From positions 1 through 23,399 of IMG/VR virus record IMGVR_UViG_3300044624_000031: a stretch of DNA of 23,399 bases; one strand, 5' to 3'. Under the pieces are notes generated by a model. The model was not told the DNA's origin, did not search any database, and saw nothing but the letters and a program-made list of their open reading frames with translations. Positions 3,469 through 23,399 of the stretch are shown here, in pieces (the stretch's first letter is position 1; the number at the start of each line of letters is the position of its first letter). Origin of the DNA: a virus. A program made the position numbers and the translations under genes.

Positions 3469-3550
3469 TACTCAAACATGAATGAACAACTATCCAAAAA
3501 AAATAGTTCAAAGGAACCGCAGACCAAAGCAATACATCAAAGTATGTCAT
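3461..3550 (-). CDS. Micro-ORF, 29 aa hydrophobic peptide
   Basis: ATG 3550 overlaps the stop of the upstream 166-residue gene (ATGA) and is preceded by a strong AAGGAAGG-type Shine-Dalgarno sequence located in that gene's last codons. The 29-residue product (start MTYFDVLLWSAVPLNYFFWI) is a single hydrophobic helix with a short polar tail ending SNE. Its own end overlaps the start of the next membrane ORF by 8 nt. A run of eight T residues encodes the Phe-Phe part. It may be a real lysis-associated peptide, or a relay that carries ribosomes to the 49-residue ORF. The SD and double overlap are the whole of the evidence. Confidence 0.4.
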   Translation of the reverse strand: MTYFDVLLWSAVPLNYFFWIVVHSCLSNE

Positions 3551-4047
3551 CGACCACACCTTCCTTTAACGCACAACTCACCTATTTCGGCAATACCCCA
3601 GCCTACTGCACCTAAGAACATCACAAGAATCACAATGCCAAAAGCCCATGCCAACTGTTCGGCTTCGTCTTCTTTTTTCTTTTTTTCAGCAGCTTTTAAA
3701 TCTGCCATCTCTTTGGCATCATCTCTATCCATTTCAGCTTGACGAGCCTTTGCTGCATTCCAGACATCAATCCGTCCGGTCTGCATAAAGAGCATCTTTA
3801 ACTGCTCCTCAAACCGCTTGGCCTCATCAAGCGCCATCTCAATCTGTAATGCTGCACCAAGGTTAGATTTACCCCCAGTACGCTTTGCCTGAAGCATTGC
3901 CTTAGTAGCAGTGCTTTGAGCATCAAACATCCGGGAGATTGAAGGAGCCAATCCAGCTAGGTCAGTTGCAACCTTGCTTGCTTTCTTAACAACACTGATT
4001 GCTGTTTGCAATCCTTCTAGTGCCGTGATTGGGTCTATTGGAATCAT
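3547..4047 (-). CDS. Phage protein with coiled coil and C-terminal membrane anchor, 166 aa
   Basis: The start is taken as ATG 4047, which overlaps the stop of the 47-residue secreted protein (ATGA) and has GGTAGAG upstream; an in-frame ATG at 4068 lacks a Shine-Dalgarno site. The protein opens MIPIDPITALEGLQTAISVV, continues with helical sequence, then a strongly charged Lys/Glu coiled-coil stretch (AEKKKKEDEAEQ, about residues 120-133). It ends with one transmembrane segment (WAFGIVILVMFLGAVGWGI) and a short tail. I recall proteins of the same order (xDPI N-terminus, helical body, basic coil, one TM) in other aquatic phages, all uncharacterised. Its location between export-type ORFs and the holin suggests a lysis or membrane role, possibly spanin-like, but no lipobox or Rz homology is seen. 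Confidence 0.65.
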   Translation of the reverse strand: MIPIDPITALEGLQTAISVVKKASKVATDLAGLAPSISRMFDAQSTATKAMLQAKRTGGKSNLGAALQIEMALDEAKRFEEQLKMLFMQTGRIDVWNAAKARQAEMDRDDAKEMADLKAAEKKKKEDEAEQLAWAFGIVILVMFLGAVGWGIAEIGELCVKGRCGR

Positions 4048-4187
4048 TTCCGCTCTACCTTTTTCCATTCAAGACATATAACTTTTCTGTTATATACATC
4101 ACCCGTCCATGTCCAACGGATGCAACGATATTCTGTCTTGTCAGAAGCTAGTGTTGCAGAAAAAAATAAAAGTAAAAGCCACCGCAT
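4044..4187 (-). CDS. Small exported protein with two cysteines, 47 aa
   Basis: ATG 4187 opens a 47-residue ORF whose TGA overlaps the next gene's ATG (ATGA). The first residues, MRWLLLLFFSATLAS, form a textbook short Sec signal peptide with a likely cut after about A14. The mature part is about 33 residues, rich in Trp and positive charge, with C22 and C38 and a core RWTWTGDVYNRKVICLEW. The two cysteines could form a disulfide in the periplasm. There is no lipobox, so this is not an Rz1-type lipoprotein. I recognise a similar WTWTGDV-N-V-CLEW pattern from other phages but no function. The upstream SD is weak. Confidence 0.55.
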   Translation of the reverse strand: MRWLLLLFFSATLASDKTEYRCIRWTWTGDVYNRKVICLEWKKVERK

Positions 4188-10384: not shown

Positions 10385-12631
10385 TTACAGGCCAAATATT
10401 AATGAGATTACTGTAGCTTTTTTCTGGGTTACGCCAGAAGGGTCAATAGGGCCTGTTGGTCCAGTTGGTCCATTACTACCAGTAGGTCCAGCAACTGTAC
10501 TAGCCGCGCCAGTTGGGCCGGTAGGTCCGACATTACCTTGAACACCTTGAATACCCTGAACGCCTTGTGGTCCAGTAGGACCAACATCACCCTGAATACC
10601 CTGTGAACCAGTAGGTCCTGTTGGGCCGACAGCACCAGTTGCACCTGTGCTGCCTGTCGGTCCTGTTGGGCCAACATCACCTTGAACACCCTGTGCGCCA
10701 GTTGGGCCTGTAGGACCTTGTGCGCCTGTTGTTCCAGTAGGACCTGTGGGACCTGTATCTCCAACATTTCCTTGTGGACCTGTAGGGCCAGTTTCGCCTT
10801 GGATACCTTGAACGCCTTGAATGCCCTGTGCGCCTGTAGGACCGGTGGGGCCTACATTCCCTTGGATACCTTGTGCGCCAGTTGGTCCGGTGGGGCCAGT
10901 AGAGCCGACATCACCAGTAGAACCTGTTGGTCCAGTAGGTCCAGCAACGCCTTGAATGCCTTGGGGTCCTGTAGGTCCGACAGCGCCTGTAGAACCGGTA
11001 GGTCCTGTGGGTCCGACATCACCTTGAATGCCTTGCGTACCTTGTGGTCCTGTTGGACCTACTTCGCCCTGAATACCTTGAATGCCTTGGATACCCTGAA
11101 TGCCCTGTGGACCTGTTGGGCCAACATCACCTTGAATACCTGTTGGGCCTGTTGCACCTTGTGGGCCTGTAGGTCCTGCAACCGTAGAATCAGCACCAGT
11201 AGGACCTGTAGGGCCTGTAACACCAGTTGGTCCAACTAAACCAATTGACTGAATCACCACAATCAAATTGTGATTGTTTGCAAAACCAGTTGTACCTGTA
11301 CCGCTAGATGTATTTAAAGTAACGGGACAAGTTATGGATGTGTTTGGTACTACTGTTGAATCAGCAGACAAAACCCATTTTTGGTAATTGTTTGAATTGC
11401 TTGCATCTTGCAATACAACACTGTCACCAGTTTTCAAAATGCCTAAGAACAAATCAACATCAATGTTGTTGCTTGTTAAGTGACTAAAAACAAGTTCTGT
11501 TGCTGAAGTTTGTGTAGCGTTATTCCAATACACATGACCCGCTGTCGGTGTACCCGATGTTTGCGTTGTATCTGCATCATATTGATAGAACGATGAAGAT
11601 TGACCATCCGCGCCCTGTGCGCCGGTTGGGCCTGTTGGACCAGCAACAGTTGAATCAGCGCCCGTTGGACCTGTCGGGCCAGTAGCGCCAGTATTTCCTG
11701 TTGCGCCTGTAGGTCCTGTAGGACCAGTTGCACCAGTATCTCCTTGAACACCTTGAGAGCCAGTAGGTCCGACATCGCCTTGTGCGCCTTGAATACCTTG
11801 CAAGCCTTGTGCGCCAGTAGGTCCAGTTGGTCCTGCAACAGTAGAGTCTGCGCCTGTGGGGCCAGTAGGTCCAGTATTGCCAATCCCACCGGTAGAACCT
11901 GTAGGTCCTGTTGGGCCAGCAGCGCCAGTATCACCTGTTGCACCTGTTGGGCCAGTAGCGCCATTTGCACCGGCTATGCCTGTAGGACCCGTAGGACCGG
12001 CAGCACCTGTATTACCTGTATCGCCTTGAATGCCTTGTGGGCCGGTAGGGCCAATATTTCCTTGGCTTCCTTGAGCGCCTGTTGGACCAGCATTGCCTTG
12101 AATACCTTGTGCGCCAGTTGGTCCGGTGGGTCCAACTACAGTTGAGTCAGCACCTGTCGGGCCTGTCGGGCCAGCGTTACCTTGATTTCCTTGTGCGCCA
12201 GTAGGACCAGTAACACCAGTATTACCTTGACTACCTTGAGGTCCAGTAGGTCCAGTTTCACCTTGAATGCCTTGGACACCTTGTATGCCTTGAACGCCTT
12301 GAGGTCCAGTTGGGCCTAAATTACCTTGGTCACCTTGATTGCCAGTAGGTCCCGTTGGACCAGTAGGGCCAGCAACAGTTGAATCTGCACCTGTTGGACC
12401 TGTGGCTCCAGTGGGGCCGGTAGGACCAGTTGGGCCAGCAACAGTAGAAGCTGCGCCTGTAGCGCCTGTGGCTCCTGTAGGGCCTGTAGGACCGTTTGCT
12501 GGGCCAGTTGGACCCGTAGGTCCGGCAACGCCAGAAACGCCCCTATCAATTGTTAAATCAATTCTTGGCTGCGGTACAACCTGAAGGTTTACATTGTTGC
12601 CATCAATAACATTGACTTTGATGTTGCTCAT
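10385..12631 (-). CDS. Collagen-like phage fibre with central globular domain, 748 aa
   Basis: ATG 12631 overlaps the upstream stop (ATGA). After an N-terminal beta head ([20 protein letters not shown], about 1-33), residues about 34-342 and 465-728 are Gly-X-Y repeats dominated by GPTGPTG and GIQGxxGPTGPQG. They should form two collagen triple-helix arms. They are separated at about 343-464 by a globular domain containing [39 protein letters not shown] and NYQKWVLS. The C-terminus is short and hydrophobic ([12 protein letters not shown]). The arms carry several recurring breaks of the form GA(A/D)STV(A/V)GPTG. It is almost certainly a trimeric tail fibre or appendage. The two repeat-coding DNA blocks flank the globular-domain segment at about 11238-11604. 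Confidence 0.9.
10430..12545 (-). repeat. Collagen-coding short tandem repeats in two blocks
   Basis: Two DNA blocks (about 10430-11237 and 11605-12545) are built from variants of 9-bp units encoding Gly-Pro-Thr and Gly-Ile-Gln triplets, for example repeated ggtcctgt, ccagtaggtcc and cttgaatacctt motifs. The units are degenerate in third positions but nearly constant otherwise. Replication slippage or recombination between units could change fibre length in 9-bp steps without shifting frame. Confidence 0.75.
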
Positions 12632-17263: not shown

Positions 17264-17710
17264 TTATTCCTTCACAAAACTTGCAGTTACTGCTTCGTAA
17301 TTTCTTTTAGTGTAATCAATCCAAGGACCTTTGGAAGATATTGAAGTCACTATCAGATTCACATCACCACGCTCTAACATTTCCGTTCCTGTACGGTCAA
17401 ATGCTTTCCACAATCTACCACCTAATGTGCCATCGCGGTATTCAGGTTCAACCCACCACAATAGCTCATGTAATTCTTTAACTTTAGGACACCATACATT
17501 GTTTTGTTTAACAGCAATGATGGCTCCTCTTAAATCTTTATCAATGTAGATAAACCCTTTTCCCTGCATGATGCTGAACAATAGCTGCTCAACATGCGCT
17601 GGATTATGGTTTTCTTGTTTGCCAAGTATTTTGATTGGATTCTCATAAGCATAAGCTTCAACAATCTCAAGCAATCTTGGAATGTCATATCTTGTCGCTA
17701 GTCTTATCAT
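17264..17710 (-). CDS. GNAT-family acetyltransferase in the tail module
   Basis: The likely start is ATG 17710, just 1 nt after the upstream stop; a GTG at 17737 in frame lacks an SD. The 148-residue protein has GNAT layout: MIRLATRYDIPRLLEIVEAY (beta1-alpha1), KGFIYIDKDLRGAIIAV, and an acetyl-CoA loop region at WWVEPEYRDGTLGGRLWKAF with the R-x-G-T-x-G-G element. A NLIVTSIS strand and an NYEAVTASFVKE tail follow. GNATs transfer acetyl groups from acetyl-CoA to amines; the acceptor here is unknown. It sits between the minor tail protein and the J-like gene, where lambda-type operons carry the gpK/gpI assembly functions. The acceptor could be a tail or host protein. Confidence 0.7.
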   Translation of the reverse strand: MIRLATRYDIPRLLEIVEAYAYENPIKILGKQENHNPAHVEQLLFSIMQGKGFIYIDKDLRGAIIAVKQNNVWCPKVKELHELLWWVEPEYRDGTLGGRLWKAFDRTGTEMLERGDVNLIVTSISSKGPWIDYTKRNYEAVTASFVKE

Positions 17711-17711
17711 T

Positions 17712-18362
17712 TTAAAAATTAGTTTCTGTTGATACACCTGTTGTTGTTATAGTTGTTTCACTTGCTTGGGTTTGCTTTTGTGGAGGCTTACCAAAGTCAA
17801 AGTATTGATTTGATATTTCAGAAACACGATTCATTGATGTGTCAGCAGGGTAAGTAAATTGCCAATTACTTTTATTTGTCTTCATGCCAGACAATCTATT
17901 CTCTAAGATTCGGCGCATAGAAGAGCAAGCAATATTACAAGTTGCTACCCTTGTTCTAAGCTGAGTATTGAAGTCTTCAGAAATAGAAACGCCACTGATA
18001 ATACCTTGATAGCGTTTAAAGAATTGAGTTGTTGGGCTTGTCAGGATTTGATTGTTTGAGTCTAAGAAGCCACGCCAAACTTCTACCAAAGAGCCTTTAA
18101 TTTCATTACCAAGAATGATGCCAATATTAACTGGGTCAATACCTGTCAAAGAAATTGTCATGTCATCTGAAGTAGCCTTGATGTCACGCTGGACATCACC
18201 AACATTGAGCAAAGCACCAAGATTAGAAAAAGTAATCCCATCAACAGTGACAGGTGCGCCAGCATTGCAAAATGTATAAACATCTTCAGCAGTGCCAACA
18301 GTGAGCCTGACAAATTCTGCATGGATAATTTGTGGGCCGTTAACCGCATAAATAGTTGTCAT
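17712..18362 (-). CDS. Minor tail protein, gpL/DUF2163-like, 216 aa
   Basis: ATG 18362 overlaps the previous stop (ATGA). The 216-residue protein has HAEFVRLTVGTAEDVYTFCNAG, ISLTGIDPVNIGIILGNEIKG, VEVWRGFLDSNNQI, FKRYQGIISGVSISEDFN, and near its end GMKTNKSNWQFTYPADTSMN plus FDFGKPPQ. A beta-rich body with a ...RGFLDS...F-G-IS... pattern resembles minor tail / hub proteins lying between the tape measure and J in siphophages (DUF2163 or lambda gpL-like); this is family analogy, not a confident match. C122-type and C150-type cysteines are present in the middle (RVATCNIACSSM). It probably forms part of the distal tail ring that receives the tip complex. Confidence 0.6.
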   Translation of the reverse strand: MTTIYAVNGPQIIHAEFVRLTVGTAEDVYTFCNAGAPVTVDGITFSNLGALLNVGDVQRDIKATSDDMTISLTGIDPVNIGIILGNEIKGSLVEVWRGFLDSNNQILTSPTTQFFKRYQGIISGVSISEDFNTQLRTRVATCNIACSSMRRILENRLSGMKTNKSNWQFTYPADTSMNRVSEISNQYFDFGKPPQKQTQASETTITTTGVSTETNF

Positions 18363-18955
18363 GTTATGTATTCCCTAAAAACAAATGGCGCATCCCATTG
18401 AACATACGCCCCATCAGTCATGGGGTTAAGTGTATATGTTGGGCAGGATTCTGCAACAACAGTAAACGAACAAGAATTGCCCATATAGACAATTAAACCA
18501 GATGCTGGCGTACCAATCAAAGGTCTGTGAATAGTAACTACAGAACCAGCAGAGTCTGCGGTTATCTTATAGGTATACCCGGCAATCATAATAAAGTCAC
18601 CAGCTTTAAATGTTCCATTGGAATTTAAATTTAAAGTTTGTGTATTAGGTGTCGGTGTGCCGTTCAAAGTAGCTGCCGTTGCAGTTCCTTGCATTTTAGT
18701 AAACCAAGAAAGATTAGCACTATTAAAAATAATAGTCTCTGGCAACTGCCTATCTTTGTTGTCAATACTTTGAATGACATCACGGACTTGTGGGTAATAC
18801 AAATATTCATGCGGCTGAACAGTAAATACCCAAGGCACAGCCGTCAGATATTGAGCCACAGTGATGTAACCAGACCTAGCTACCTGTTGACCAATAGTAC
18901 GGCGGTTGTTAACCGTCATGGATTGCTGAATTTCAAAGATGGTTTGGAAGCTCAT
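18359..18955 (-). CDS. Minor tail protein, 198 aa
   Basis: ATG 18955 overlaps the tape measure stop (ATGA), the usual place of the lambda gpM-like protein. The 198-residue product starts MSFQTIFEIQQSMTVNNRRT, continues with VAQYLTAVPWVFTVQPHEYL, and has a beta-barrel-like half (TLNLNSNGTFKAGDFIMIAG, VVTIHRPLIGTPASG). It ends with a strand-rich YVQWDAPFVFREYIT. It probably caps the tail below the tape measure protein. Function is deduced from gene order; sequence similarity is too weak for me to name the family. Confidence 0.6.
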   Translation of the reverse strand: MSFQTIFEIQQSMTVNNRRTIGQQVARSGYITVAQYLTAVPWVFTVQPHEYLYYPQVRDVIQSIDNKDRQLPETIIFNSANLSWFTKMQGTATAATLNGTPTPNTQTLNLNSNGTFKAGDFIMIAGYTYKITADSAGSVVTIHRPLIGTPASGLIVYMGNSCSFTVVAESCPTYTLNPMTDGAYVQWDAPFVFREYIT

Positions 18956-21348
18956 GCTCGGCCCCTGTTAACTGCTAATGATTTACCAGCATATTGATTT
19001 GCAGCCCAAATTGCATTAGAACTGCCAAGTAGACGGTCCTCAAATGATTTGGTATCAATTGCGTTGATGTAATTGTTGGTGACATTTGTAGTGCTGCCCA
19101 TATTTGACAAAGCGTGATTTGGGATAATAGTTCCTGCTGTTTTTGGAATAAACAATTCTGGACCACGCTCACCAACTACGCTTACTTTGCCAACTGGAGG
19201 TTCACCACCATCCGCATAACCTCCACCGGGTTGCATTGGTATGGTTGTATTAGCATTACTAGGAACACCAAGATTCATAAACATACGAAGGAAAGACAAT
19301 GCTGCGGCCTTCATTTGAATGGCAATCAAATCTTGAATAACGCTACGGGCAAAATCTTTCATTGAAAGCTTACCTGTCTTGACAAATCTATCAATAGCGG
19401 AACCCATATTCCCCCATACGCTATCAAAAACCTGTGCAGTCTTTTTCATTGAATCTTGTATTTCAACATTAAATTCTTCTAATTTTTGTTGTTGCCTCAG
19501 ATTGTCAAGAATAACTTCATTGCCGCCAGCTTTATCTTTTTCTCTTTTATATTTCAAAGCAATTTCTGCAAGTTGTATTTCTTTTTCTGAAGCATACAAC
19601 ATTCTGTTTCTTAGTTCTAAAGATTCTTTATCTTGCTCTAAAGCATTTGTTTTTTCTTTCGCATTAAATTCAGCAGTCGCTTTCATTTGAGCAAACTGAT
19701 TTTCCATGTCTTTCAGTCTTTGCTCTTCAGCATTTTGTTCAGCAATTTCAGCGGCTCTAGCTTTAGATTTAATAGCGGTAATTTTTGCAGCGCCTTCTTG
19801 TGCAATTGCAATAATTTTTTGCTCATAAATTTGTTGGTTCTGTACGGCAAATTTCCCAAACTCTTGTTGATTTTTTTCTTTCATTTCAGCATAAGCTTCA
19901 TCGGCTTTCTTACTGATTTCAAGATTAGCTTTTTCAATTTCGTTAGCGCTTCTCACTGAAATTGCATATTCAGCAGCAGCTTTGGCTTTTGCTAATTCAC
20001 TAGCCTTTTGAATACGAGTTCCATTGTTTTCAGCGTAATCTTCAATCTTTGCTTTACTATCACCAACATCACGAGCAGCAGCAGAACGAGCCTTCAAACG
20101 CTCAGTCTCAAGTAAAGCTTCTCTTTGGTCTTTTAAAGATTGAAGCTGTTTCTTTTGCTCTTGCTCAAATTTGCTTCCACCTGTATTTTTTCCAAGAGCG
20201 TCTTGAACAGTTTTAATTTGCCTATCAAGTTGGGCGATAACTTGGTCAGTGGTTTCTGGCTTGCCAATGTCTTTCAACATATTCCAGAAGCCACTTAAGC
20301 TGTTAGTCAAACTTTCCCAAGCTTTTTCCAATGTACCAAGCTCACGGCGTTGTGCAGCCAATTGAGTGTTTAATGCAATAGAAGCAACCTTTGCTGCCTC
20401 TTGTTTTTTACCAGCTTTCTCAAACGCTTCAATTTGTTTGTATTGCTCAAGAGTCAGAAAGTTCATTTCCTTATTCAAGGAACGAGCGCCTGAAGCAGTT
20501 CCATCCAAGCCTGTCATAAGCTTGTCAGCAGCGGTTTTAGCGTCTACGCCAGCAATCTGAGCATAGGTAATGATTGATTGCGTTACGGCACTAATAGAAG
20601 TTTCTGTGAATTTACCGGAAGCCACCACCGCATTCAATGCGTCTTTAGTCATGCCAAGTGAGGCATGTGTCCTATTGCTTAATTCATCAGATAACTTATA
20701 AAACTTTTCTGTTGTAATACCAGCAAAGTTGCCAGTCAAAGTTAATGTGTCTTTTAACTTATCAAACTCATCTCGACCAGAATAAGCAGCATAAGCAACA
20801 GCGCCAAGAGCGCCAGCAAAACCACCAGCAATAACTCTTGTTAAAGTAAACAAAGAGCCAATAGCTTTTAGAGCATTACCAACACCACCCATCACATCCT
20901 TCAATTGACCACCCTGTTGAATAACAGCAATCAATGGGTTTTGGCCTGAAGCAAGCTGAGTAAACAAGTCAGTGGTTTGATAGGTCAACTGAATTTTCTG
21001 TTGCTCATTCATCTTAAATTGAGCAGCAGTAGCATTCTTTGTAGCGGCTGCAACCTTGTCATAAGCAGCGGCCCTTTCAAGCAATTGCTGCTTCATTTCC
21101 TTAGTCGCATTCATAAAGCGACCGGAACTTATTTCACGCTCAATTAACTGAACCTTTGTAAGGGTTTTCCCGTAGTCTTCAGCAGCAAGCTTTAGCGCGG
21201 CAGATTCTTTTAAAGCGGCCTGTGAATCTCTCTTAATTGCGTCTTTTAGCTTTCTATTTTCGGAAATAGCTTTGTCAACTTGAGCGGTAAATTCAGCCGT
21301 GTCAAGTCCAAGAACAACGCCTAATCGGGCAATATTTTGTGAAGCCAT
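18952..21348 (-). CDS. Tape measure protein, lambda gpH family, 798 aa
   Basis: ATG 21348 lies in a TAATG junction, with AGAGGAAA upstream. Residues 123-152 (YQTTDLFTQLASGQNPLIAV, then IQQGGQLKD) are the conserved lambda gpH/TMP signature. They are followed by a hydrophobic, Gly/Ala-rich stretch (about 155-195) that may insert in the membrane at infection. The middle is long Lys/Glu/Gln-rich coiled coil (about 330-620). The C-terminal part has VWGNMGSAIDRFVKTGKLSM and FARSVIQDLIAIQMKAAA, the lambda-type C-terminal tail motif, and GERGPELFIPKTAG near the end. It sets tail length; at 0.15 nm per helical residue, 798 residues would suggest a tail of about 120 nm. Confidence 0.92.
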   Translation of the reverse strand: MASQNIARLGVVLGLDTAEFTAQVDKAISENRKLKDAIKRDSQAALKESAALKLAAEDYGKTLTKVQLIEREISSGRFMNATKEMKQQLLERAAAYDKVAAATKNATAAQFKMNEQQKIQLTYQTTDLFTQLASGQNPLIAVIQQGGQLKDVMGGVGNALKAIGSLFTLTRVIAGGFAGALGAVAYAAYSGRDEFDKLKDTLTLTGNFAGITTEKFYKLSDELSNRTHASLGMTKDALNAVVASGKFTETSISAVTQSIITYAQIAGVDAKTAADKLMTGLDGTASGARSLNKEMNFLTLEQYKQIEAFEKAGKKQEAAKVASIALNTQLAAQRRELGTLEKAWESLTNSLSGFWNMLKDIGKPETTDQVIAQLDRQIKTVQDALGKNTGGSKFEQEQKKQLQSLKDQREALLETERLKARSAAARDVGDSKAKIEDYAENNGTRIQKASELAKAKAAAEYAISVRSANEIEKANLEISKKADEAYAEMKEKNQQEFGKFAVQNQQIYEQKIIAIAQEGAAKITAIKSKARAAEIAEQNAEEQRLKDMENQFAQMKATAEFNAKEKTNALEQDKESLELRNRMLYASEKEIQLAEIALKYKREKDKAGGNEVILDNLRQQQKLEEFNVEIQDSMKKTAQVFDSVWGNMGSAIDRFVKTGKLSMKDFARSVIQDLIAIQMKAAALSFLRMFMNLGVPSNANTTIPMQPGGGYADGGEPPVGKVSVVGERGPELFIPKTAGTIIPNHALSNMGSTTNVTNNYINAIDTKSFEDRLLGSSNAIWAANQYAGKSLAVNRGRA

Positions 21349-21839
21349 TATTTCCTCTTTCTAGCCAGCTTTGCAGCGTAATCAGGGATGCGAGAAGCCA
21401 ATTGAGATTTTAGAACATTGAGTACTGCTCCGGCGTTTTCTTGTAATGCTGGACGCAAAAAAGGATGCGCTGAAATTTTAGATGTACCAAATTCTTGAGC
21501 TAAAGAAACAGCACTTTTCTTTACAGAAACAACAGCAATGGCTGCATCTGTTTCATTGACATATTCGCTTCGTCTATCTTTTTCACTAGGAATACGAGCA
21601 TCCAACCTAATGGTATCTCGCATGTGAAAAGGATTGTTTGCATCTCTAGGCTTGTCGCCTACAGGCGCTCTGGTTTGAGCAGTATTAAAAACAGATTCCA
21701 TAGCTATTTTGGCTGATGGAACCAGTGTGTTTCTAGCTACTAAATCACCCCGAAAGCCTTCAGCAATTGCTTTTAACTGCTGTTCAAACTCATCAAACCC
21801 TTCCAGTTCAAAGGTCAGCTTTTCAGGGGTATAGGCCAT
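21348..21839 (-). CDS. HK97 gp10-like tail completion protein, 163 aa
   Basis: ATG 21839 begins 1 nt after the stop of the T reading frame, consistent with coupling. The protein shows the usual gp10 order: LEGFDEFEQQLKAI, then KIAMESVFNTAQTRAPVGD, and the C-terminal motif FGTSKISAHPFLRPALQENA. HK97 gp10-like proteins act in completing or capping the tail terminus at the neck. In most siphophages this gene precedes the major tail protein; here it sits between the tail assembly chaperone and tape measure genes, an unusual position. Confidence 0.8.
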   Translation of the reverse strand: MAYTPEKLTFELEGFDEFEQQLKAIAEGFRGDLVARNTLVPSAKIAMESVFNTAQTRAPVGDKPRDANNPFHMRDTIRLDARIPSEKDRRSEYVNETDAAIAVVSVKKSAVSLAQEFGTSKISAHPFLRPALQENAGAVLNVLKSQLASRIPDYAAKLARKRK

Positions 21840-21840
21840 T

Positions 21841-22185
21841 TCACACTTTCAAGAATGCCTCCGAACCCGGCATCATGCTAATAAAGGCTGAAAGCTTGTT
21901 GTTCACTTCTGCTTTCATCTCTTCCTCAGTAGGAGGCGGGACAATATATTCATGCGTAGAAGGCAAGACATCTTTCATTTCAAATGGCTTTGCCGTCTTC
22001 ACTATTTTCGAGTTTAAATTGCCGGTGGTCAAGGAGCTTAAAGCCAACAAAACAGCTTTATTGCCTATCATCCCATCGGACAACATAATCTCTATGTTGA
22101 CCATATCATCCAGCGGTACATTATCAGGACACCCCCCGTGGGCATAGATATATGCCCGGGCTTGAAGGTGGATGTCCTTAATTAG
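21841..22185 (-). CDS. T-domain extension of the tail assembly chaperone (reached by -1 frameshift)
   Basis: A frame open from CTA at 22185 to the TGA at 21841-21843 encodes 114 residues. It joins the G protein if ribosomes slip back one base on the A AAA AAC heptamer at 22185-22191. The part upstream of the internal ATG at 22104 (LIKDIHLQARAYIYAHGG, then CPDNVPLDD) has no stop and reads like protein, so translation from the slip is more natural than an 87-residue ORF starting at 22104. The C-terminal part has PPPTEEEMKAEVNNK and FISMMPGSEAFLKV. By analogy with lambda GT, it should bind the tube subunit while the G part binds the tape measure protein. The total fusion would be 268 residues. 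Confidence 0.65.
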   Translation of the reverse strand, partial: LIKDIHLQARAYIYAHGGCPDNVPLDDMVNIEIMLSDGMIGNKAVLLALSSLTTGNLNSKIVKTAKPFEMKDVLPSTHEYIVPPPTEEEMKAEVNNKLSAFISMMPGSEAFLKV

Positions 22186-22191
22186 TTTTTT
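22140..22191 (-). promoter_or_regulatory. Programmed -1 frameshift site of G/GT with downstream hairpin
   Basis: Reading the - strand, A AAA AAC (22191-22185) lies in the correct zero-frame phase (AGA AAA AAC) directly before the G stop codon. Downstream, GGGCATA (22157-22151) and TATGCCC (22146-22140) make a perfect 7-bp stem with a 4-nt loop. Flanking CACC (22170-22167) and a G-rich strand at about 22137-22130 could extend this into a larger structure. The hairpin starts about 27 nt after the slippery site, farther than typical stimulators. Confidence 0.65.
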
Positions 22192-22646
22192 CTGGAATCC
22201 TTATATCCGGGCTGAATGGCTTCCGTAATCTTGTTCAGAATTTCTAACTGAACTTGGAAAGGCCATTCTTCATCAATTTCTTTATATGTAATGTCATCAA
22301 GTGAGCCAGTCTCAGGAATCAACAACCGAATGTATTCAGTAGTTCTGTTTTCCATTTGAATCATTGACTCCACCAGTTCCCGTGTGGACCGGCCTTCAAT
22401 AATCACATCATCTTCAGTAACAACAACGCCTTCAATAGCAGTGCTGTCTTTGAATGTGGTTGTCATTTTGTCAAACCGATTTTGTACATCAGTTTGGTCA
22501 ACAACTTTAATTCGCTCTTGAATCTCATCCATCTCTTTTGTCAGAGGGATGCGAACCTTAAATATGTGTCCACCAAGCTCAAAAGTTTTTGTTCTAAGAG
22601 CTTCTGTGTTGTATTTGTTGCCAAAGGCAGAACCTAGTCTTGTCAT
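22182..22646 (-). CDS. Tail assembly chaperone (gpG-like), 154 aa
   Basis: ATG 22646 has AAGGAAAC upstream. The protein shows the short strand and helix start usual for tail assembly chaperones (KTFELGGHIFKVRIPLTKEM), a long charged middle, and YIRLLIPETGSLDDITYKEI followed by a WPFQVQLEILNKITEAIQ helix. It lies between the tail-tube-like gene and the tape measure gene, the conserved lambda G position. Its last codons AGA AAA AAC TAA contain an in-frame slippery heptamer that gives the G-T fusion. The chaperone keeps the tape measure protein soluble during tail assembly. Confidence 0.75.
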   Translation of the reverse strand: MTRLGSAFGNKYNTEALRTKTFELGGHIFKVRIPLTKEMDEIQERIKVVDQTDVQNRFDKMTTTFKDSTAIEGVVVTEDDVIIEGRSTRELVESMIQMENRTTEYIRLLIPETGSLDDITYKEIDEEWPFQVQLEILNKITEAIQPGYKDSRKN

Positions 22647-22655
22647 GTTGTTTCC

Positions 22656-22877
22656 TTATTTTTTGATTATCTTGTGATAGATGGCTTCATTCAACTCAAT
22701 GGCGTATTCCACCGCCTGAGAAGGAGTGAGCTTATCGGCATGATGCCGAGCAATGTCATGCGCTAACGCAATAGCAGTAATGCGTTGTTGAGTGAACCCA
22801 AACCAATTCTTAGACGAATCGGATTGGGCTACTAGGAAACTCAACAGGTCTGTGTTGTCTTTTACTATAGTAGTCAT
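22656..22877 (-). CDS. Small hypothetical protein between tail tube and G, 73 aa
   Basis: ATG 22877 lies 2 nt after the stop of the tail-tube-like gene, so it is probably translated by coupling; no clear SD precedes it. The 73-residue product is helical and mixed in charge (DNTDLLSFLVAQSDSSKNWF, then QRITAIALAHDIARHHADKL, then AVEYAIELNEAIYHKIIKK). No signal peptide or membrane segment is seen. It lies just upstream of the G chaperone, a place where small tail assembly factors are often found, but I recognise no family. Confidence 0.55.
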   Translation of the reverse strand: MTTIVKDNTDLLSFLVAQSDSSKNWFGFTQQRITAIALAHDIARHHADKLTPSQAVEYAIELNEAIYHKIIKK

Positions 22878-22879
22878 GT

Positions 22880-23399
22880 TTAAGAGTTGTTAGACCAGCC
22901 GTAGCTATTGCCACCTGTTGGGTGGATTGTGAAGATGAACTTGCCTTCAGCAGAAGGAGACATATCCCACTGCAAGCCACCAACGCGACCGTTGAAAGCG
23001 TAAGCAACAGTGTTAGTGCCGTCATACACAGCAATAACATAAGTGCGAATGATTGTGCCGTTGTAGCCGTCATCGCGAATCAACAACTGAGCGGTGTCAG
23101 CAGGATTCCATGCAGAAGTAATGGTCAGCGAAGTCACTTGGTTTTGTGTAGTGATTTTCGCGCCTGTACGAGCGCCAGCCACTGAGTAAGCAGCAAAAGC
23201 GTCATCAGCACCGAAAGCTGGAACAGCTTCCACGGGGACCAAAATACCATCAGTACCAGTACCGCCAGCAGAAGTACCAATAATGTCAGCAACTTGACCA
23301 GTCCATGTTTCCAATTGAGTGTCAGTCAATGCTGTTGGGTTAGCACCAGTTTGACACCAGAGGGTGGCAACATAACCGGGAAGAATTTTGTTAATTAAA
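22880..23399 (-). CDS. Tail tube (major tail)-like protein, 5' end beyond the window
   Basis: The frame is open from the right edge of the window to the TAA at 22880-22882. No ATG exists in the visible part, and a TTG at 23329 is not a convincing start because the frame reads on upstream (INKILPGYVATLWCQTGANP). About 172 residues are seen: a lead-in with TQLETWTGQVADIIGTSAGG, then a beta-rich body (AKITTQNQVTSLTITSAWNP, GTIIRTYVIAVYDGTNTVAY, GRVGGLQWDMSPSAEGKFIF) and a tail ending GNSYGWSNNS. Size, beta composition and position before the G/GT and tape measure genes indicate the major tail tube subunit. The identification rests mainly on gene order. Confidence 0.65.
   Translation of the reverse strand, partial: LINKILPGYVATLWCQTGANPTALTDTQLETWTGQVADIIGTSAGGTGTDGILVPVEAVPAFGADDAFAAYSVAGARTGAKITTQNQVTSLTITSAWNPADTAQLLIRDDGYNGTIIRTYVIAVYDGTNTVAYAFNGRVGGLQWDMSPSAEGKFIFTIHPTGGNSYGWSNNS

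Follow-up and report, generated by a model that had tools for sequence, protein, structure and literature searches.

We propose that two reading frames on the minus strand of the window, by which we mean the whole 23,399-nt stretch of viral DNA analysed here, belong to a tail operon of siphophage type and are joined by a programmed −1 ribosomal frameshift that would fuse a G-like chaperone to a T extension, and we regard this reading as very probable (roughly 93%). An initial annotation, made from the sequence alone, had likewise claimed a −1 frameshift joining a tail assembly chaperone to its T extension, and the claim is supported by the relatives of the site, by covariation in a downstream RNA stem and by selection on the −1 frame. 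Frameshifted tail chaperones are already known and widespread; the novelty lies in the member family, a conserved stimulatory stem, a stop codon fixed flush against the slip site, and a series of switches in the slip motif.

Predicted slip site and reading frames at the G/T junction

The anatomy of the junction can be read directly from the minus strand. The G-like coding sequence (154 aa) runs from an ATG at 22646, which is preceded by AAGGA, to 22182, and its 3′ end reads ...GAT TCC AGA AAA AAC TAA. The heptamer A AAA AAC occupies 22191–22185, and it begins on the third base of a codon, which places it in the nnX XXY YYZ phase relative to the G start; the zero-frame stop TAA (22184–22182) follows flush after it. 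Read from 22185, the −1 frame continues through 114 open codons to a stop at 21843–21841 (T extension with its stop, 21841–22185, minus strand), the next gene starts at 21839, and the predicted G-T fusion would comprise 154 + 114 = 268 aa. Within the extension lies an isolated 87-aa ORF, which begins with an ATG at 22104–22102 and is preceded by 27 codons without a stop. On all of these points, namely the AGA AAA AAC TAA end of G, the phase of the heptamer, the 114 open codons up to the next gene, the isolated ORF with the stop-free codons before it and the 268-residue product, the initial annotation was accurate. An in-phase slippery heptamer by itself is unremarkable and is common by chance in the window, because 25 occur in 24 window genes. 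A long −1 frame after such a heptamer was found at the G site only (114 codons), the runner-up among all window genes having 33 codons. As a separate observation, an in-phase A AAA AAG of the E. coli dnaX type is present at 3685 (minus strand) in a Lys-rich stretch of the ORF 3547–4068 (173 aa); it has an open −1 frame of 33 codons behind it and is probably a chance occurrence.

Relatives were collected by viral-contig searches with G and T and were reduced to 153 distinct site sequences, a set that takes in phage P19250A and two MAG contigs (L164 and L165) which may be mis-binned phage. One further hit (L166) was discarded, being a chance match over 12 residues in Streptomyces, and no cultured relative besides P19250A was found in the phage collection searched. 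The −1 frame was open at all 153 sites and in full in all complete relatives, the short ones L118 and L178 being cut off where the fetched DNA ends. The slip codon was followed flush by a zero-frame stop at every site (TAA at 110, TGA at 25 and TAG at 18), and each site has a long helix that starts about 6 nt past the slip codon. X_XXY_YYZ heptamers were present at 109 of the 153 sites (AAAAAAC 74, GGGAAAC 24, GGGAAAA 4, GGGAAAG 3, TTTAAAA 2 and TTTAAAG 2), and at the same place in the other 44 we found A_AAG (GTCAAAG 17, CTCAAAG 13, GGAAAAG 11, TTCAAAG 2 and CGAAAAG 1). Thus, of the features whose conservation the initial annotation had proposed to follow through related phages, the −1 frame and a slip motif in the same position stood throughout, while the AAAAAAC sequence itself was kept at about half of the sites. 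No relative was found to lack both the heptamer and the continuous −1 frame, or to have a clear Shine–Dalgarno (SD) sequence and start for a free T protein.

In a tree of G proteins, the window falls within a fully supported AAAAAAC clade that holds two GGGAAAC lineages (L012 and L135), and the other side of the tree carries GGGAAAC, together with a distant group with GGGAAAA or GGGAAAG. Within this GGGAAAC side lies a supported superclade that includes P19250A, in which most members have A_AAG and canonical motifs are nested (L201/L206 and L213). This distribution on the tree indicates repeated switching of the slip motif, with the rest of the cassette unchanged. These switches also bear on whether the fusion could be produced by RNA polymerase slipping on the six consecutive A residues, and not by the ribosome. 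The run is present in the window and at the 74 AAAAAAC sites, but six A residues are short for transcriptional slippage, and the relatives with GGGAAAC, GGGAAAG or TTTAAAG have kept the heptamer pattern and the stem without any long homopolymer. Hence, because the motif switches drop the A run yet keep the re-pairing pattern, ribosomal slippage is preferred over transcriptional slippage, and a stem that is conserved by compensation 6 nt past the slip site fits a ribosome model as well; we consider polymerase slippage exceedingly improbable.

Predicted translation of the −1 frame and the start of T

In the 24 codons located 5′ of the ATG at 22104 (T codons 4–27), divergence among 59 sequences was 0.086, 0.095 and 0.406 at codon positions 1, 2 and 3, respectively, and in the same stretch the +1 frame of these 59 sequences contained 139 stops and the −1 frame contained none. 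As judged from this codon-position divergence, the −1 frame before the ATG is under purifying, protein-level selection, which bears out the earlier argument that an isolated 87-residue ORF would leave protein-like codons unexplained. T could alternatively be a separate 87-aa protein that starts at the ATG at 22104, by ordinary initiation or by termination-reinitiation, with the 27 preceding codons untranslated; this ATG is present in the window and in 54 of the 77 relatives in its clade, and in the public annotation of P19250A T is a separate ORF that starts from an internal ATG. However, the ATG at 22104 is missing in the remaining 23 of the 77 window-clade sequences, and an SD-like core accompanies it in 0 of the 54 that keep it, while in the sister clade the P19250A-type T start is missing in 21 of 70 sequences and has an SD-like core in 5 of 50. 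Moreover, where the ATG of the T start has been lost, the remaining starts are deep inside the conserved domain, and no convincing free-T start was found across the relatives. Thus, because the ATG is often missing, the SD-like core is rare and the −1 frame diverges as a protein, a free T protein is unlikely as a general mode of expression; we reject 22104 as a free T start, and hold a separate 87-aa protein with untranslated codons before it to be very improbable. Fusion of T to G by −1 frameshifting remains the preferred reading.

Synonymous variation among the 59 distinct G-T sequences was zero at both heptamer codons and at the Lys codon six before the end of G, and also at T codons 3, 4 and 19, which make up the core of the outer stem described below. 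Zero synonymous variation alone is not proof of a constraint at these codons, because synonymous variation is also low at T codons 58–61. A wider stretch of very low synonymous variation was noted at T codons 51–61 (about 22035–22003, minus strand; TCC TTG ACC ... AAC TCG AAA), with L096 and a few other sequences as the sole exceptions. The low variation nearby had suggested T TTA AAC at T codons 56–58 as another programmed site, which we rejected because many relatives carry C TTA, TTG or CTG instead. Upstream of the heptamer, an internal AAGGA is located at 22202–22198 (minus strand), and its Lys codon is AAG in 59 of the 59 closest sequences; AAA is found in the window-clade relatives L102, L103, L108, L111 and L164, and is common in the P19250A clade. 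This candidate internal SD sequence might conceivably act as a second stimulator.

The downstream RNA stem

The initial annotation had described a perfect 7-bp hairpin downstream of the slip site and had regarded its distance, about 27 nt, as unusual. The hairpin GGGCATA-TATC-TATGCCC is indeed present at 22157–22140 on the minus strand (arms 22157–22151 and 22146–22140), 27 nt 3′ of the heptamer, and shows compensatory changes at two pairs. In the minimum-energy fold, however, it is nested inside a 9-bp outer stem that pairs AGGACAUCC (22178–22170, minus strand) with GGGUGUCCU (22134–22126, minus strand), and this outer stem starts 6 nt 3′ of the heptamer, within the usual spacing of 5–8 nt between slip site and stimulatory structure (PMC4066793). 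Folding of the region thus retains the hairpin and rules it out as a lone stimulator 27 nt away, since the stem that encloses it begins at 6 nt. The fold has a minimum free energy of −27.1 kcal/mol, with a z of −2.5 against dinucleotide shuffles and of −2.98 against synonymous-codon shuffles, in which the protein of the −1 frame and the codons it uses are left unchanged; with these synonymous-codon shuffles, z was below −2 in 27 of 34 family representatives, and 7 of the 34 fell short of −2. The outer stem has 12 bp in most relatives compared with 9 bp in the window, whose stem carries one mismatch (A-G, columns 46/80).

Covariation was evaluated in two clades. In the window clade (50 distinct sequences, aligned without gaps), 97.3% of the cells were paired and 34 were double-change cells, whereas slid controls gave at most 50% pairing, and RNAalifold on the same clade returned nearly the same structure. 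In the sister clade (68 sequences), whose stem differs in sequence, 97.5% of the cells were paired and 74 were double-change cells; at one example pair, G-C occurred 37 times and A-U 31 times with zero mismatches. In each clade 0 of 500 shuffles were as high, although these counts are not probabilities, because the sequences are related, and the weight rests on the slid controls and on the independent second clade. Moreover, in L165, which lay outside the first alignment, an otherwise invariant C-G is changed to U-A. These substitutions indicate that the stem is conserved by compensatory change in two clades.

Stable hairpins have many uses, and with 25 in-phase heptamers in the genes of the window, the hairpin might have some other function, for example to protect the mRNA or to hide a start site, and the heptamer might be incidental to it. 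Nevertheless, the offset of about 6 nt between slip codon and helix is constant across clades with unrelated stem sequences, and the heptamer codons are free of synonymous variation. In addition, no U-run was found 3′ of the hairpin in the window sequence, and an Rfam search of the window gave zero matches at the gathering score. An unrelated purpose of the hairpin thus has next to no chance of being right, and we retain the stem as a probable stimulator of frameshifting.

Tail operon context and proposed mechanism

The two predicted frameshift-joined ORFs sit between the genes of a putative major tail protein (22880–23398, minus strand; located upstream of G, assigned by position and with no HMM match) and of the tape measure protein (798 aa, 18952–21348, minus strand; Pfam TMP_2 6.5e-45, Tape_meas_lam_C 1.6e-13, phrog_24 1.1e-78). 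An HK97-gp10-like tail completion protein is encoded between T and the tape measure gene (21348–21839, minus strand; TIGR01725 at 37 bits, above the cut-off, and phrog_5 1.2e-09). G and T gave no match to a named family in Pfam, PHROGs and NCBIfam and no sequence match in the PDB; the frameshift ORFs of phage tail chaperones are known for low sequence similarity (PMC5009743). The AlphaFold model of G, of fair quality (pLDDT 81.5, pTM 0.72), resembles the HK97 tail assembly chaperone 2ob9, which was the top Foldseek match among 350,542 PDB chains (probability 0.85, E 0.27), and the VIA comparison of the two gave a Z of 6.1 and an rmsd of 3.9 over 101/107 residues at 11–12% identity, unrelated rows scoring at most 2.8. 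A Vibrio PICI-like protein of unknown function (5ir0) scores like 2ob9 against G. The fold match is moderate, and homology of G to the HK97 chaperone is likely. The model of T is too poor for a fold search (pLDDT 58), and the role of T is suggested by analogy only. The names G and T would accordingly reflect position, frameshift architecture and the fold match to the HK97 chaperone, and not sequence similarity.

From the anatomy of the site, we infer that slippage takes place in cells in the following manner. Most ribosomes would terminate at the UAA codon and release the 154-aa G, while a minority would pause at the 9–12 bp stem located 6 nt downstream; tRNA-Lys and tRNA-Asn would then re-pair one base back, from AAA AAC to AAA AAA, and translation would resume in the −1 frame and give the 268-aa G-T fusion. 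In the P19250A superclade the last codon alone could re-pair (AAG to AAA), which would belong to the Z_ZZN tetramer class, and among tetramers A_AAG performs best in E. coli (PMC4066793). In phage lambda, G binds the tape measure protein and T binds the major tail protein (PMC5009743); by analogy, G here would coat the tape measure protein, and the few G-T molecules would use their T part to recruit the major tail protein. The slip site had been called strong in the initial annotation, an assessment that does not hold up, because A_AAA_AAC is an inefficient shift motif in E. coli (PMC5009743, PMC4066793), and a flush stop should compete with slippage, given that −1 shifting at the HIV site fell when a stop codon was placed behind it (PMC4373837). 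Hence, since the motif is inefficient in E. coli and the flush stop favours termination, the efficiency of frameshifting at the window site may be low, and a low yield of G-T would fit the ratio of G to G-T in lambda, which is approximately 30:1 (PMC5009743). It is possible, but to us rather doubtful, that the mechanism itself makes use of the flush stop, with slippage taking place while the stop is in the A site and in competition with release factor; a single Lys tRNA in the P19250A superclade would then slip on A_AAG beside the stop, and the conserved stem would offset the weak shift site. If this were true, the ratio of G to G-T would depend on the supply of release factor.

In the proposed cassette, as in gpG/gpGT of phage lambda, −1 slippage joins two ORFs upstream of the tape measure gene, the slip site falls at the end of the G gene, the −1 extension has persisted despite sequence divergence, and the model of G resembles a chaperone; unlike in lambda, a gp10-like gene separates T from the tape measure gene, and G and T are without sequence similarity to named chaperone families. 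The HK97 chaperone 2ob9 is the best solved-structure match of the G model by Foldseek, but stands apart from it in its low identity (11–12%) and E value of 0.27. Sites of the IS911/IS3 type and A_AAG sites such as that of IS1222 also combine a heptamer or an A_AAG tetramer with a structure 5–8 nt downstream, but in these insertion sequences the product is a transposase, whereas the present sites are predicted to yield a tail chaperone and have the stop directly behind the slip codon. In annotated SEA-PHAGES cases, the zero-frame stop is on average 26 nt away (PMC10885494), whereas it is flush at every site of the present family. Moreover, certain tailed phages have been described as shifting frame with no apparent stimulatory signals (PMC5009743), and the compensated stem of 9–12 bp in this family would mean that some tail-chaperone sites do carry a conserved RNA stimulator.

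The closest comparison in culture is the Methylophilaceae phage P19250A, whose genes 0013/0014 (KX815270) are annotated as two separate hypothetical proteins. They are homologous to G (43% identity) and T, the −1 frame is continuous 5′ of the annotated T start, and a stem lies 6 nt past the slip codon; unlike in the window, however, the slip site is G UCA AAG stop, with A_AAG only and no X_XXY_YYZ heptamer. The cassette is absent from the family libraries searched, and the phage group that carries it is large and almost uncultured, P19250A being the only cultured member found. The family provides a natural experiment in which the −1 frame, the flush stop, the spacer and the stem are fixed and the motif alternates between a two-tRNA heptamer and a single-tRNA tetramer, and this series of motif switches allows one to ask what sets the ratio of G to G-T.

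Several minor features of the tail region were also noted. A 73-aa ORF (22656–22877, minus strand) between the putative major tail protein gene and G is closely related to an ORF of P19250A (L019:5210–5437) and has no family match. A GNAT-type acetyltransferase-like ORF, judged from its translation, lies within the tail module (17264–17737, minus strand), and a collagen-like protein of 748 aa with GPTGPTG repeats is encoded at 10385–12631 (minus strand), adjoined by ORFs that probably encode tail fibres, glycine-rich ones among them. In P19250A the gp10-like gene is located before G (L019:5437–5991), and in the window it follows T (21348–21839), which amounts to a swap of gene order around the conserved frameshift cassette.
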